Under the pieces are notes generated by a model. The model was not told where the DNA came from and did not search any database. It saw only the letters and a program-made list of their open reading frames with translations. A stretch of DNA of 64,000 nucleotides from Ruegeria marina. GTDB lineage: Bacteria > Pseudomonadota > Alphaproteobacteria > Rhodobacterales > Rhodobacteraceae. The translations under genes were made by a program, and so were the position numbers. Shown piece by piece: positions 44,070-49,462 of the stretch. The stretch lies in the NCBI RefSeq assembly GCF_900101475.1, contig NZ_FMZV01000002.1, positions 372,001 through 436,000 on the forward strand, given 5' to 3'. How positions within the stretch are numbered: position 1 is the first letter of the stretch; each line of letters starts with the position of its first letter.

Positions 44070-44785
44070 ACATAGGGCATGGTGGTCGCCATCACCGTCA
44101 TGAACAGAACATTGGCCTCGGCGGGCAGGCTGGCCATGTGCAGCACCGAACGCGCCGCATCTTCGACCGCCATCGTGGGATCGGGCACCCGCCCCTGTTC
44201 AAGCACGGCCTTGTTCAGGCTCTCGACAATGTCTGTACGCGCATTGCCAATGTCGATCTGTCCGGCGGCGATGCCGAACCCGCGCCCATCCAGCGACAGG
44301 CTGCGGGTCAGCCCGGTGATGGCGTGTTTGGTTGCGGTATAGTGCACGGAATTCGGCCGCGGTGCATGGGCCGCGATCGAGCCGTTGTTGATGATACGGC
44401 CGCCCTGCGGCTCTTGTCGGCGCATCCGGGCAAAGGCCGCACGGGCACACAGGAACATCCCGTTCAGGTTGACATTGACCGACCTGTACCAGTCGTCCAG
44501 CGCGATCTCGTCAATGGTGCCGCCCGGGGCGAAGATACCCGCGTTGTTGAACAAGACATCCAACCGCCCTGTCTGCATGCAAAACCGGTCGAAAGCCGCT
44601 TCGACGGCTTCCGGCTCGGTGACATCGGCAGCCAGGGGTATTGCCCGCGCCTGGCCCGCCGCCATGTCGTCCAGAAGATCACTCCGGCGCGCCAGCAGCC
44701 CGACAGTCCATCCTTCGGCAAGGAACAATTCGGCAGTGGCCCGTCCGATACCGGAACTGGCGCCAGTGATCAGGATGGTTTTCAT
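44057..44785 (-). CDS. Short-chain dehydrogenase/reductase
   Basis: Classical SDR of 242 residues: cofactor loop GASSGIG at 8-14, NNAG near 80-83, catalytic Ser136 in INNGSIAAH, Tyr149 and Lys153 in YTATK. The lack of an acidic residue at the end of strand 2 (LLARRSD, with Arg-Arg) suggests NADPH. Substrate unknown. Its start overlaps the helicase stop by four bases. Homologues are usually annotated as generic oxidoreductases. Confidence 0.88.
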   Translation of the reverse strand: MKTILITGASSGIGRATAELFLAEGWTVGLLARRSDLLDDMAAGQARAIPLAADVTEPEAVEAAFDRFCMQTGRLDVLFNNAGIFAPGGTIDEIALDDWYRSVNVNLNGMFLCARAAFARMRRQEPQGGRIINNGSIAAHAPRPNSVHYTATKHAITGLTRSLSLDGRGFGIAAGQIDIGNARTDIVESLNKAVLEQGRVPDPTMAVEDAARSVLHMASLPAEANVLFMTVMATTMPYVGRG

Positions 44786-46317
44786 TCAGGTGTCTCCTCT
44801 TCGAGTGTCAGAACGGGTGCGGCGGCCTGTCGTAGATCCTCAACCTGCAAGGGGTGCGTCGGTTTCGACAAACGGTTGCGAACAACCCAGATCAACCGTT
44901 CCTGTGCCCGGGTTATGGCCACATAGGCCAGCCGTTTCCACAAGGGTTGCCCTGCTTCGACACGTCCTGCACGCGCGGCGGCATAGAGATCCGGAGCAAA
45001 GACCTGCACGGTTTCCCACTGCGACCCCTGCGCCTTGTGAATGGTCACCGCCGCCCCGTGCAGAAATGTTGCGCCCATACGCGCGGCAAAAGGGATGAAC
45101 GGTTCTTCCTCATCCGGCTTTTCAATCTTGACGATCGAGGCAGCCGAGACTTGCGGATCTTCGGCACCGATCACGTGCAGCCGCGAAAACCCGGGTTTGC
45201 GGCCGGGGCCGAGATAGATCACCTGCGCGCCCTTGATCAGCCCGCGCGCCTCCAGATCGAGCCGCTTCTTGCGGTGCTTCAGCGGCAATTCAATCCCGTC
45301 GCAGATCAGCGGCTCGCCCTCCAGCAGTTCCTCGTCCGGAGCGCCATAAACAGTGCGAAAGGCATTGATCAGGCGGATTCGGGTGGCGTTGCGCCAGACC
45401 AGGACCGGGCTGCGCGCCATCAGGTCCACCTCGACCCTCTGTCCCCAGACGATCCGGTCGTCCCCGCGTGCCTTGTCCTCGACCATGTGCTCGAAGGTTT
45501 CGAAATCCAGCGCCGGGTCGGCCAACGCATGGGCAAGGTCCAGGATAGGGTTGTCCGCCTCCTGCCGGTGAACGCGGCTCAGGTTCAATTTGCGAGGCTC
45601 GGGCAATCCGTCGAACACCATCGAACCCGACTGGTTCACCGGCGCCAGCTGTGCCGGATCGCCGAACAGAACCAGCGTCGGGAATATCTCCTTGAGGTCC
45701 TCGAACTGGCGGTCGTCGAGCATCGAGGCTTCGTCGATGAAGCCTATATCAAGCGGTTCTTCTCGCCGCTTCCAACCTGTGATGAAATCAGATCCGCGCA
45801 GCCCCGCAGCCGCCAAAGCCCCGGGGATCGAATTGTTGCGCGCATAAAACGAGGCGGCGCGGTCCAGCGCCTCATAGCTCAGCCCTTCGATCTCCGGGCG
45901 CTCACCGTTGCCTGCCAGCCATTCGGCGATCCGCTCGTAATCCGGATCGTAGACCGGGGTATAAAGGATGCGGTGAATTGTGGTTGCAGGAACGCCGCGC
46001 AGCCGCAAGACGCTGGCCGCCTTGTTGGTGGGGGCAAGCACCGCCAGGGTTCGGCGGTCCTTGGTCTTTCGCCCTTCATAGTCGCCGGACACGACCTGCA
46101 CACCGGCCTGCGTCAGGGTCTTGCACAACTCGGCCAGCAGCAACGTCTTTCCCGATCCCGCCTTGCCGATGACGGCCATCACGCCGGTCACGCCGCCGCC
46201 AGGCGGGCGCAACAGCGCTTCGTCCTCCAGGTCGATGCCAGCGGCGTTCAACAGCTCGGCAATCGCGTCATAGGCACTGGCCTGATCGTCGGAAAAGGTG
46301 ACGGCATTCTGTGTCAT
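44782..46317 (-). CDS. RecD-like superfamily 1 DNA helicase (ATP-dependent)
   Basis: 511-residue SF1B-type helicase. Walker A GKAGSGKT is at 51-58, followed by LAPTNKAASVLRLRG (motif Ia), GFIDEASMLDD (motif II), LFGDPAQLAPV (motif III), VTIHKAQGSQWETVQV (motif V) and YVAITRAQERLIWV (motif VI). It lacks the long N-terminus of RecD2, so it is a compact Pif1/RecD relative probably acting in replication or recombination. It starts 46 bases after luxI on the same strand, and a 12-base-pair hairpin ends on its start codon. Confidence 0.85.
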   Translation of the reverse strand: MTQNAVTFSDDQASAYDAIAELLNAAGIDLEDEALLRPPGGGVTGVMAVIGKAGSGKTLLLAELCKTLTQAGVQVVSGDYEGRKTKDRRTLAVLAPTNKAASVLRLRGVPATTIHRILYTPVYDPDYERIAEWLAGNGERPEIEGLSYEALDRAASFYARNNSIPGALAAAGLRGSDFITGWKRREEPLDIGFIDEASMLDDRQFEDLKEIFPTLVLFGDPAQLAPVNQSGSMVFDGLPEPRKLNLSRVHRQEADNPILDLAHALADPALDFETFEHMVEDKARGDDRIVWGQRVEVDLMARSPVLVWRNATRIRLINAFRTVYGAPDEELLEGEPLICDGIELPLKHRKKRLDLEARGLIKGAQVIYLGPGRKPGFSRLHVIGAEDPQVSAASIVKIEKPDEEEPFIPFAARMGATFLHGAAVTIHKAQGSQWETVQVFAPDLYAAARAGRVEAGQPLWKRLAYVAITRAQERLIWVVRNRLSKPTHPLQVEDLRQAAAPVLTLEEETPE

Positions 46318-47042: not shown

Positions 47043-47086
47043 TACGAAAGAATGGTTAACATCCGGTCATTAGGTCGTGCACCGCA

Positions 47087-47806
47087 TTAAACCACGATCA
47101 AACCGCGACTCATCGCCGTCGCTATCGCATGGGTTGTATTCAGGGCGCCCAGTTTGAACCGGGCGCTTTCAATATAGACCCGCAAGGTATGCTCTGAAAT
47201 CGACAGGGAATGAGCAACCTGCGCCCGGTTGTACCCGAGCGCCAGCAAGGTCATGGCGTCCACTTCCCTAGGGGACAAGGTTCGCGAGAATTCCGGTTGG
47301 CGGTTGGCTTCGAATTCCAGCGCTTTACGGTTGAAGTAATGCGCGATCAGGATCAGGTCCCGCGAATAGGTCGAGGTAAAATCAGACCAGACGGTATCGT
47401 CGCAGGTGTGGTTCACCGTGAACAGGGCGAACTGCCCGTTTGGCCCCCGGATCGGTATCGAGTACCCCTGGTTGCCAATGCCATGTTCCATGGCGTCCTT
47501 CAGGAATGCCCTTGCCACCTTGCCGGACCAATCGAGGCGTTTCCAGTCAACCGGGTGAAACCTTTGGAAGCACCCCAGAATGACCGGATCAATCCGGTGA
47601 TAATTCTGTAACAGGTAGCGGTCGACCCAAGGTTGCGGGTATGTCGTACACCCGTACTGATCCCCTGCGCTGTCTACCCAGTGATAGACAATGTGATCAA
47701 TGGCGAGGGTATCCCGCAGCGTCCGGGTTACCTGCTCTAGCTCCTCAAGCGCGCTGGCAGCGTCCAACTCCTCGAGGATGGGCTCCAAATTGACTTTTCC
47801 GTCCAT
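47087..47806 (-). CDS. luxR: LuxR family autoinducer-responsive regulator
   Basis: 239-residue quorum-sensing regulator. The autoinducer domain spans about 10-160 (HIVYHWVDSAGDQYG, WVDRYLLQNYHRIDPV with the conserved W, Y and D), and the C-terminal helix-turn-helix is LSPREVDAMTLLALGYNRAQVAHSLSISEHTLRVYIESARFKLGALNTTHAIATAMSRGLI. ATG 47806 has no ribosome site and lies inside an upstream small ORF, implying coupled translation. luxI follows. A luxR-luxI pair beside ccr recurs in roseobacters. Confidence 0.92.
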   Translation of the reverse strand: MDGKVNLEPILEELDAASALEELEQVTRTLRDTLAIDHIVYHWVDSAGDQYGCTTYPQPWVDRYLLQNYHRIDPVILGCFQRFHPVDWKRLDWSGKVARAFLKDAMEHGIGNQGYSIPIRGPNGQFALFTVNHTCDDTVWSDFTSTYSRDLILIAHYFNRKALEFEANRQPEFSRTLSPREVDAMTLLALGYNRAQVAHSLSISEHTLRVYIESARFKLGALNTTHAIATAMSRGLIVV

Positions 47807-47963
47807 GAGTAAGCGCCAATGCCTCTTCGTACTTGGACGCAATCTCGGTAGCGGCGATCAACTTGGTATCGTCAAGCTGCTCGGCCAGCGCACTCAGACC
47901 GTTCGCCACGGCGAAAGATTTGAGGTCCGACAGTACGTCCAGGATCCATTCGTTATGTGGCAT
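47745..47963 (-). CDS. Small ORF overlapping the luxR start
   Basis: 72-residue ORF beginning MPHNEWILDVLSDLKSFAVA with a good ribosome site (GGGGAGAG, five bases before ATG 47963). The first 45 residues look like an amphipathic helical protein (ALAEQLDDTKLIAATEIASKYEEAL); the last 20 overlap luxR by 62 bases in another frame. I know no function. Either it is a real small protein coupled to LuxR or a leader ORF that carries ribosomes to the luxR start. Confidence 0.65.
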   Translation of the reverse strand: MPHNEWILDVLSDLKSFAVANGLSALAEQLDDTKLIAATEIASKYEEALALTHGRKSQFGAHPRGVGRCQRA

Positions 47964-47981
47964 CAGACTCTCCCCGAAAAG

Positions 47982-47998
47982 GTTAACGAAGCGTTAAC
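47982..47998. promoter_or_regulatory. GTTAACG palindrome upstream of the luxR unit
   Basis: GTTAACG-AAG-CGTTAAC is a perfect seven-base inverted repeat with a three-base spacer, 18 bases before the small ORF start. It could be an operator for the luxR transcript. It does not resemble a classical lux box. Confidence 0.45.
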
Positions 47999-48116
47999 TC
48001 AACCATAGCATGTACCCATTGGGTTAGGAAATTCGCTTCTTTCCACTCCCCAAAAGTAGTGAGGCACAAATTCGCAAACCACTGAAACGCTGTCTGCGCC
48101 GGTTGCAAACGAAATG

Positions 48117-48146
48117 GCCCGCGAACCACATCTGTGATTCGCGGGC
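48117..48146 (-). terminator. Terminator hairpin of ccr
   Basis: GCCCGCGAA and TTCGCGGGC form a nine-base-pair stem; inside, CACA and TGTG pair around TC. It lies 29 bases after the ccr stop on the reverse strand and is followed by CATTTCGTTT, a broken T-tract. Confidence 0.75.
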
Positions 48147-48175
48147 ATGTTGACTGCTTCAAGCTGAAAGCGGGG

Positions 48176-49462
48176 TTAACCCCGGGCGTCGAGCACTTCT
48201 TCAAGAGTCCGCAGACCCGTCCGGGGCGATTGCACCAGAACTGACATGTTGCCCGGCTTGTGTTCGTTGCGCATCATCTTCATATGCGCCTCGGGCAGAT
48301 CATTCCAGGTGAACACTTCGGACATGCAAGGATCAAGACGACGCTCCAGCATCAGCCGGTTGGCGGCCGCCGCCTGTTTCAGATGAGCGAAGTGCGAGCC
48401 CTGCAGGCGCTTCTGGTGCATCCACATGTAACGCACATCAAAGGTACAGTTGAACCCGCTGGTGCCGGCGCAGATGACCACCATGCCGCCCTTTTTCACC
48501 ACCAGCGACGACACCGGAAAGGTCGCCTCGCCGGGATGTTCAAAGACCATGTCCACGTTCACACCCTTGCCGGTGATATCCCAGATCGCCTTGCCGAACT
48601 TGCGGGCCTCTTTCAACCACTCGGCATATTCCGGCGTATTGACCGTGGGCAGTTGTCCCCAGCACTTGAATTCCTTGCGGTTGATCACGCCCTTGGCGCC
48701 CAGCCCCATGACGAAGTCGCGCTTGTCCTCGTCCGAAATCACGCCGATCGCGTTCGCGCCGGCAGTGTTGATCAGCTGGATCGCATAGGAGCCCAGACCG
48801 CCCGACGCGCCCCAGACCAGGACGTTCTGACCCGGCTGCAGGTCATGCGGCGGGTGGCCGAAAAGCATCCGGTAAGCGGTCGCCAGCGTCAGCGTGTAGC
48901 AGGCGCTTTCCTCCCAGGTCAGATGCTTGGGGCGCGGCATCAGCTGTTGCGCTTGAACACGGGTGAATTGCGCGAACGAGCCGTCGGGCGTCTCGTACCC
49001 CCAGATGCGCTGGCTCGGAGAATACATCGGATCGCCGCCGTTGCATTCCTCGTCATCGCCGTCGTCCTGGTTGCAGTGGATCACCACTTCGTCGCCGACC
49101 TTCCAGCGCTTGACCCTGTCACCCACCGCCCAAACGATGCCCGCGGCGTCGGAACCCGCGATGTGATAGGGCTGCTTGTGGCCGTCGAAGGGGCTGATCG
49201 GCTTACCCAGCGCCGCCCAGACACCGTTGTAGTTGACGCCTGCGGCCATCACCAGCACCAGCACCTCATGGCTGTCGAGCACGGGGATATCCACGACCTC
49301 CTGCTGCATCGCGGTATCGGGCTCGCCATGGCGTTCCCTGCGGATCGCCCAAGCGTACATCTTCTTCGGAACGTATCCCAACGGGGGGATTTCGCCCATT
49401 TCATAAAGATCTTTTTCGGGCGCCTCGTAGGAAGCGATACCGCTGTCGGTGTCCAAAGCCAT
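48176..49462 (-). CDS. ccr: Crotonyl-CoA carboxylase/reductase
   Basis: Key enzyme of the ethylmalonyl-CoA pathway: reductively carboxylates crotonyl-CoA to ethylmalonyl-CoA with NADPH. The 428 residues belong to the zinc-free MDR family: MYAWAIRRERHGEP, YNGVWAALGKP, HIAGSDAAGIVWAVG, HCNQDDGDDEECNGGDPMYSPSQRIWGYETPDGSFAQF and the NADPH loop VWGASGGLGSYAIQL. ATG 49462 follows AAAGGAGG. It lies near ecm with only an acyltransferase gene between. The pathway lets the cell grow on acetate-level carbon. Confidence 0.97.
   Translation of the reverse strand: MALDTDSGIASYEAPEKDLYEMGEIPPLGYVPKKMYAWAIRRERHGEPDTAMQQEVVDIPVLDSHEVLVLVMAAGVNYNGVWAALGKPISPFDGHKQPYHIAGSDAAGIVWAVGDRVKRWKVGDEVVIHCNQDDGDDEECNGGDPMYSPSQRIWGYETPDGSFAQFTRVQAQQLMPRPKHLTWEESACYTLTLATAYRMLFGHPPHDLQPGQNVLVWGASGGLGSYAIQLINTAGANAIGVISDEDKRDFVMGLGAKGVINRKEFKCWGQLPTVNTPEYAEWLKEARKFGKAIWDITGKGVNVDMVFEHPGEATFPVSSLVVKKGGMVVICAGTSGFNCTFDVRYMWMHQKRLQGSHFAHLKQAAAANRLMLERRLDPCMSEVFTWNDLPEAHMKMMRNEHKPGNMSVLVQSPRTGLRTLEEVLDARG

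Follow-up and report, generated by a model that had tools for sequence, protein, structure and literature searches.

A conserved small open reading frame that overlaps luxR in a roseobacter luxRI locus very probably encodes a microprotein

Introduction

What is the role of a 72-codon open reading frame (ORF) that stands before luxR in a roseobacter quorum-sensing locus and ends inside it? The question arises from the window analysed here, the whole stretch of 64,000 nucleotides (nt) of Ruegeria marina contig NZ_FMZV01000002.1 (positions 372,001 to 436,000), whose own numbering is used throughout. The locus is exactly of the ccr-luxR-luxI-helicase type, the 'B topology' that Cude and Buchan described in 2013 for 24 genomes (PMC3824088). 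The available passages of that text, its figure aside, place the crotonyl-CoA reductase gene before luxRI, and a small gene between them is absent from these passages. The host luxI/luxR of P. inhibens is called a simple two-gene operon in the accessible part of a 2026 preprint (PMC13345283), a statement whose bearing depends on the presence of the ORF there. A common roseobacter luxRI operon type thus appears to start with a protein-coding gene that is absent from the cited descriptions, as far as their available passages go. Because of this extra gene, work on these bacteria that relied on two-gene models, on reporter fusions or on deletion of luxR may have removed, uncoupled or affected by polarity an additional regulator.

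A preliminary description of the window had proposed that LuxR production depends on translation of the ORF, and that the encoded protein may be functional, perhaps as a LuxR-binding modulator. The account preferred here stands, as a whole, an even chance of being right. The microprotein would be the first cistron of a microprotein-luxR-luxI operon headed by a CtrA-type box. Built of two helices with a core of ∼45 residues, it would do a job of its own, without need of LuxR. Ribosomes translating the ORF would cross the luxR start and end 62 nt inside the gene, so that luxR, which has no Shine-Dalgarno (SD) site, would be translated by coupling. Most likely, the microprotein would bind and disarm a helix-turn-helix regulator of the PraR/XRE type, as CinS and MmaP do.

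Architecture of the locus

The features of the locus are compiled in Table 1. Two elements of the preliminary description, a 72-residue ORF with GGGGAGAG before its ATG and a luxR start 62 bases before the ORF end, were both recovered on re-examination. The range given there, 47745-47998, also covers the CtrA-type box of Table 1. The two start codons are 157 nt apart in the window. Their common strand and compact order suggest that the microprotein, luxR and luxI genes share one transcript. Upstream of the CtrA-type box (48002-48060), two blocks that resemble promoter elements, TGGGGAGTnGAAAnnnGnGAAT and TGCTATrGTTGTG, stand out by eye as strongly conserved.

Table 1. Coordinates of the features of the microprotein-luxR-luxI locus in the window
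Feature	Sequence or domains	Position	Strand	Remarks
Helicase-like gene		44782-46317	minus	After luxI (B topology); name from PMC3824088, available passages
luxI	PF00765	46364-47002	minus	Start probably 47002, behind AAGGGGAC, and not the first in-frame ATG at 47062; by eye
luxR	PF03472, PF00196	47806-47087	minus	ATG 47806; no SD site
Microprotein ORF		47963-47745	minus	ATG 47963, stop TGA 47747-47745; 72 codons; core, residues 1-45, conserved; tail, residues 46-72, variable
Overlap of microprotein tail with luxR codons 1-21		47745-47806	minus	62 nt, +1 frame
Microprotein stop within luxR	TGA (in CTT GAG)	47745-47747	minus	59 nt in
SD site of microprotein	GGGGAGAG	47975-47968	minus	Spacing to ATG 4 nt
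CtrA-type box	TTAACGCTTCGTTAA (TTAA-N7-TTAA)	47997-47983	minus	-34 from microprotein start codon
Extended -10-like element	TGCTATGGT	48002-48010	minus	Conserved, just before CtrA-type box; by eye, 34 upstream regions; putative promoter role
Conserved upstream block	TTTGGGGAGTGGAAAGAAGCGAAT	48031-48054	minus	By eye
ccr, crotonyl-CoA reductase-type	PF08240, PF00107	48176-49462	minus	5' side of microprotein; ATG by eye; name from B topology (PMC3824088, available passages)

A probable small protein conserved in Rhodobacteraceae

The preliminary description had suggested looking for the ORF upstream of luxR in other roseobacters, and it was found there, overlapping luxR in all 30 loci first read. 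A search with the single sequence detected the microprotein in 62 of 147 relatives, and a profile of 21 relatives raised this number to 64. Once the profile also held copies lacking luxR, 285 of 394 family genomes gave a match, corresponding to 284 of 393 genera. A class-wide draw of 385 genomes gave four matches, three of them from the same family; the fourth lies inside a 558-aa frame and looks spurious. A second match in one genome (G005), which lies across a long ORF region of the opposite strand and contains stops, was also rejected as spurious. Contexts were compiled in a census of the best-scoring 100 among the matches listed, drawn from newly met genomes of the 394-genome search, so that census counts lean to well-conserved copies.

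Residues W6 and D13 are invariant, even when divergent forms are counted, and conservation of the ORF falls off just before the luxR start. Over codons 2-45, dN/dS is 0.20 (55 sequences; 600 pairs sampled, of which 506 were usable), which indicates that the 45-residue core is under purifying selection; a control with shifted frames yielded 1 and 0 usable pairs and so gives no control. Within the overlap, dN/dS is 1.31 in the ORF's own frame versus 0.51 in that of luxR, so luxR seems to dictate the sequence of this part. An AlphaFold2 model from 57 sequences predicts a two-helix hairpin (helices 6-20 and 24-58), with block means of pLDDT of 97-99 for residues 11-40 and of 45-55 past residue 50, and a pTM of 0.58.

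The protein has no recognised relative in the collections searched. No family of Pfam, NCBIfam or PHROGs matches the window protein, and Rfam at gathering scores gives no match over 47600-48250. Pfam holds models for TraM and SinI. With Pfam scores relaxed to E up to 10, the window protein still matches none, and the seven families matched by single members of a set of 24 do not include TraM or SinI, in a search in which the HMMER filters drop most weak matches. Foldseek against the PDB returned nothing below E 5, and a PDB sequence search returned four matches (best E 0.24), none of them a solved relative. Among viral contigs, 68 stretches fit the pattern and none was confirmed. A literature search over titles, openings of abstracts and text passages found no paper naming the gene, which is short of proof that none exists. 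The proteogenomics table of new genes in R. pomeroyi (PMC3305630; 39 of 39 rows) holds no 72-residue entry, a result whose weight depends on that strain carrying the ORF. Collectively, the ORF very probably represents a real microprotein family, unremarked within the literature searched. The earlier suggestion of a functional protein thus gains computational support from the spread over genomes, the core dN/dS, the two-helix model and the confined stop described below.

A CtrA-type box in front of the microprotein

Of 80 named loci, 77 carry a TTAA-N7-TTAA element at -34 to -37 relative to the microprotein start, compared with none of 4930 background windows of 60 nt. In the census (best 100 of the matches listed), it is present in 77 of the 88 contexts with luxR and in 0 of the 12 without. 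This element is the CtrA consensus, and by its box the locus would belong to a CtrA regulon, with CtrA presumably binding at this place. According to the available parts of PMC4046655, CtrA sites had already been predicted before D. shibae luxR2I2 and R. pomeroyi luxRI, and expression of Dinoroseobacter shibae luxR2I2 drops in a ctrA mutant. What is new here is the fixed place of the box before the start of the microprotein.

The microprotein without luxR

Microprotein and LuxR matches (the latter at E up to 1e-40) occur together in 53 of the 147 relatives, while 11 have the microprotein without a LuxR match, 4 have LuxR alone and 79 have neither. LuxR without the microprotein is therefore limited to 4 of the 57 genomes with a LuxR match; in two genomes (G078 and G042), luxR follows ccr and no ORF is recognisable. 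Of the 11 genomes positive for the microprotein and negative for LuxR, ten keep the microprotein gene directly behind ccr, free-standing, and neither luxR nor luxI is matched there. The remaining one, G007, carries two divergent copies, with neither a ccr nor a luxR match over 4 kb. Free-standing copies make up 12 of the 100 census contexts (best 100 of those listed). On a Ccr tree (FastTree, 110 rows, 21 of them free-standing), the free-standing state needs eight changes, at least five of which are forced by well-supported branches; in each of them, luxRI may have been lost or gained. Since the microprotein is kept behind ccr without luxRI, over at least five forced changes, it does not exist for LuxR alone, and a LuxR-independent job is likely.

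A LuxR match is found in 78 of the 80 named loci, and the other two have the appearance of deletions. The luxR start of Ruegeria atlantica CECT 4292, present to about codon 35, joins luxI from about codon 91, while the CtrA-type box is intact and the microprotein is complete to its own stop; this is a single draft assembly, and the junction may be an assembly fault or too young to have decayed. In Aquicoccus porphyridii, only a trace of the start of luxR is left of luxRI, an exact box is lacking and the microprotein is likewise undamaged as far as its stop. Both would be deletions between the helicase gene and the microprotein, apparently independent ones.

These data bear directly on the proposal of a LuxR-binding modulator, in which the microprotein would act on the neighbouring LuxR in the way TraM binds TraR. 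Partners encoded together often interact, and the two genes coexist in 53 of the 147 relatives and overlap in each of the 30 loci examined. Retention where luxRI is absent or deleted weakens this claim of the preliminary description, because another partner or job is needed in genomes without luxRI; other LuxR-type regulators remain candidates there. Together with the lack of a Pfam or NCBIfam family matching the window protein, this makes a dedicated LuxR binder rather unlikely.

A bond with the upstream gene was weighed as well. The microprotein could belong to the ethylmalonyl-CoA pathway, for instance by binding Ccr, luxRI having been attached later. Its gene lies within 400 nt after ccr in 94 of the 100 contexts (best 100 listed), and the copies without luxR stay there. 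Shared synteny can by itself account for this position, however, and two microprotein-luxR-luxI sets among the matches listed (L298 and L311) have no same-strand ccr match in a 5-kb stretch. Moreover, divergent paralogues lie away from ccr, and the CtrA-type box tracks luxR (77 of 88 versus 0 of 12, best 100 listed). A function tied to ccr is thus judged unlikely, and an independent job of the microprotein, directed at a third partner, is retained as the preferred reading. The paralogues away from ccr are L184 (G007), L191 (G340 C16), L185 (G052 C3) and L186 (G017). In G007 and G340, two copies run in opposite directions ∼0.8-1.4 kb apart, and by eye the neighbours of all four resemble transposase genes in part.

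Possible kinship with CinS and MmaP

Who could the partner be? According to the accessible passages of PMC4149787 and PMC10790750, CinS of Rhizobium leguminosarum and MmaP of Methylobacterium fujisawaense are small proteins whose genes share a transcript with a luxI homologue. Both bind PraR, a regulator of the XRE type, and MmaP is a PraR antagonist. The likeness to the microprotein is one of size (53-81 aa, against 59 aa for MmaP in the passages seen), of origin from a quorum-sensing gene set, of the absence of a recognised domain in the 72-aa window protein and of the presence of PraR-type regulators in the window genome. Unlike CinS and MmaP, the microprotein is encoded upstream of luxR and overlaps it instead of following luxI, is spread family-wide, is kept without luxRI and is headed by a CtrA-type box.

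The comparison set consisted of small ORFs located right after luxI in other Alphaproteobacteria, i.e. at the MmaP position, and not of the CinS and MmaP sequences themselves. The microprotein model ranked six plausible post-luxI small genes as its top six, weakly (best E 0.45 in 1000); three other plausible ones (L341, L342 and L347) ranked low. A profile, A4, was made of five of the six top-ranked ORFs and two relatives of the best; from a further one, A5, were left out L392 (in a long ORF), L394, near-duplicates and the doubtful L395. Aligned by hhalign, the microprotein and the MmaP-position proteins gave a probability of 80.9 (E 1.2e-5, score 29.4, 36 columns), against scores of at most 15.0 for 60 column shuffles and 9.9 for the reversed profile. 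With a larger set of MmaP-position proteins, the probability was 75.5 (E 2.4e-5, score 28.4), against at most 13.0 for 100 shuffles and 13.7 for the reversed profile.

The signal varies with the rows used. It fell to a probability of 62.8 without the best three rows, to 27.8 (score 22.6) when the larger luxR-type profile A2 was set against A5, and to 21.0 (score 21) for A5 rows 8-14 alone, which stem mostly from the A4 search. An N-terminal window of LuxR scored 20 in the profile comparison, versus 28. Taken as single rows, a trio reached 53%, a pair 1.2% and the best single row 9.2%, with 250 decoy fragments at 5.4% or less (score ≤16.4). The best similarity between single sequences is weak (6.8 bits, a score attained by 3 of 1894 fragments). 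In the reverse direction, the model of the MmaP-position proteins scored 100 microproteins at a median of 9.2 bits, versus -1.6 for the fragments reported; microproteins filled all of the top 25 places, and free-standing copies scored lower (median 5.5, n = 12). On balance, these profile comparisons tilt slightly towards homology of the microprotein to the small proteins at the MmaP position. Plasmids searched with either the microprotein or a protein from the MmaP position gave no match. In other Alphaproteobacteria, small proteins resembling the MmaP-position ones are also encoded at a distance from luxI (L387-L390 and L396-L398), a hint of a broad uncharacterised small-protein family beyond luxI loci.

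Candidate partners are widespread. By eye, a PraR-type XRE gene stands between an lnt-like gene and metK in three genomes represented in A4 (G127, G284 and G224), and before metK, without lnt, in G371. The window genome has no PraR at this usual lnt-metK place; its PraR-type XREs are encoded at C20:93101-93463 (49% identity) and C27:119182-119544 (40% identity). One of them lies directly upstream of a second luxR-luxI pair, after which comes a gene of the opposite strand that looks trigger-factor-like (names by eye). PraR-type genes were detected in 35 of 36 genomes with the microprotein and in 16 of 19 without (55 family genomes); this shows no detectable co-occurrence and is uninformative, because these genes are near-universal. 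An XRE partner of the microprotein is thus a testable guess by analogy. If the microprotein is CinS-like, PraR antagonists of quorum sensing extend to the Rhodobacteraceae, and the locus offers a concrete test of the wiring between CtrA, quorum sensing and XRE regulators.

A wider version of this reading is conceivable, in which the microprotein would be a family-wide anti-XRE hub under joint control of CtrA and quorum sensing, disarming PraR-like XREs and ranking competing LuxR circuits. It is regarded as unlikely, and so are the targets that it would entail, namely second xre-luxR-luxI systems and xre-luxR-luxI switches of resident prophages. The second luxI of the window genome, mentioned above (L323, G000:C27), shows the order XRE-luxR-luxI with a PraR-like XRE, and a third luxI match lies at C35:45644-46120.

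Overlap with luxR and likely translational coupling

Whatever its partner, the microprotein gene is physically tied to luxR. The ORF runs into luxR in all 88 census contexts with luxR (matches listed), and its frame relative to luxR (+1) is constant in the 87 genera tested among these matches, the 88th luxR being too short. In all 87 of these listed genera, the ORF stop begins 26-62 nt inside luxR, and in 52 it occupies the exact place seen in the window; these lengths are relative to a homologous position, because the census luxR start was extrapolated from the window alignment.

A null model was obtained by redrawing the synonymous codons of luxR from each genome's own usage. For the 87 genera among the matches listed, a first stop falls within 64 nt in all cases, against 49.0 ± 4.2 expected (48.8 in a first run), and within 40 nt in only 5, against 31.1 expected; the 64-nt limit was picked after inspection of the data, and related genera are treated as independent. 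When all positions are considered, the first stop in the real sequences is on average no earlier than in the null (mean percentile 0.47), whose other draws fall beyond 64 nt. With this excess within 64 nt and deficit within 40 nt, the stop is confined to a narrow zone and not merely early. The other out-of-frame reading shows a far smaller excess, with a stop within 64 nt in 60 of 87 cases (matches listed) where 51.5 ± 3.5 are expected, which marks the null as imperfect. The stop is formed by differing codon pairs (CTT-GAx, GCT-GAx and ATT-GAx), which argues that the stop itself is kept, and not a codon. Read most simply, the pattern means that ribosomes translate the ORF and that the point where they leave it matters for luxR.

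The ribosome sites of the two genes are unequal. In the window, the energy of the anti-SD duplex is -7.6 kcal/mol for the ORF and -2.0 kcal/mol for luxR, versus a median of -2.6 at random positions. Across the 87 census genera (matches listed), ORF starts have a clear SD site (median -5.6, P = 1e-18 versus background). For luxR, an ATG is present near the expected place in 62 of these listed genera, with sites much weaker than those of the ORF (median -3.0) yet slightly above background (P = 0.006), and is missing there in the other 25. Among the 80 named loci, 65 have an ATG precisely 62 nt ahead of the ORF end, and 7 of these show a 4-nt SD match, while the same measure is positive for ORF starts in 55 of 80. 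The absence of a ribosome site before luxR, as claimed in the preliminary description, thus holds for the window genome and for most of its group, but not for every relative: in some divergent ones, luxR apparently starts with TTG or GTG behind an SD site, so that coupling may be eased there. Occluding RNA structure at the luxR start was not seen in the single sequence folded, that of the window, where the mean unpaired probability is 0.50 around the luxR start and 0.39 around the ORF start.

The missing luxR SD, the constant relative frame in 87 of 87 genera (matches listed) and the confined stop are consistent with a predicted coupling of luxR translation to that of the ORF, which is judged plausible to likely. 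A back-step of 62 nt is long for termination-reinitiation.

Coupling could also be the sole purpose of the ORF, with a functionless peptide whose translation alone opens or loads the luxR start. The strong SD on the ORF and its lack on luxR, the fixed relative frame, and the stop confined to 26-62 nt with few early stops (5 versus 31 expected within 40 nt, matches listed) all suit such a leader. Against it speak the constraint on the protein core (dN/dS 0.20) and its presence in 285 of 394 genomes. The ORF is not confined to loci with luxR either: the microprotein lacks luxR in 12 of 100 contexts (best 100 listed) and stands behind ccr in 10 of 11 LuxR-negative genomes. Because the protein persists without luxR, a mere leader is very improbable. 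Finally, a slip of ribosomes from the ORF into luxR, giving LuxR an N-terminal microprotein domain, is extremely unlikely: the +1 relation is fixed (87 of 87, matches listed) and ORF conservation falls just before the luxR start, but no shared slippery site is seen by eye, copies without luxR exist, and a stop in the luxR frame begins 3-15 nt before the candidate start in 5 of 30 loci (L010, L018, L027, L028 and L029) and 27 nt before it in L007, leaving little room for slippage in those loci.

A last observation concerns DNA around the start of the microprotein. A GANTC site, of the CcrM type, occurs within -25 to +3 of this start in 28 of 87 genomes (matches listed), versus 3.4% of 28-nt background windows, and in the window a GAGTC overlaps the SD site of the microprotein (47961-47988).
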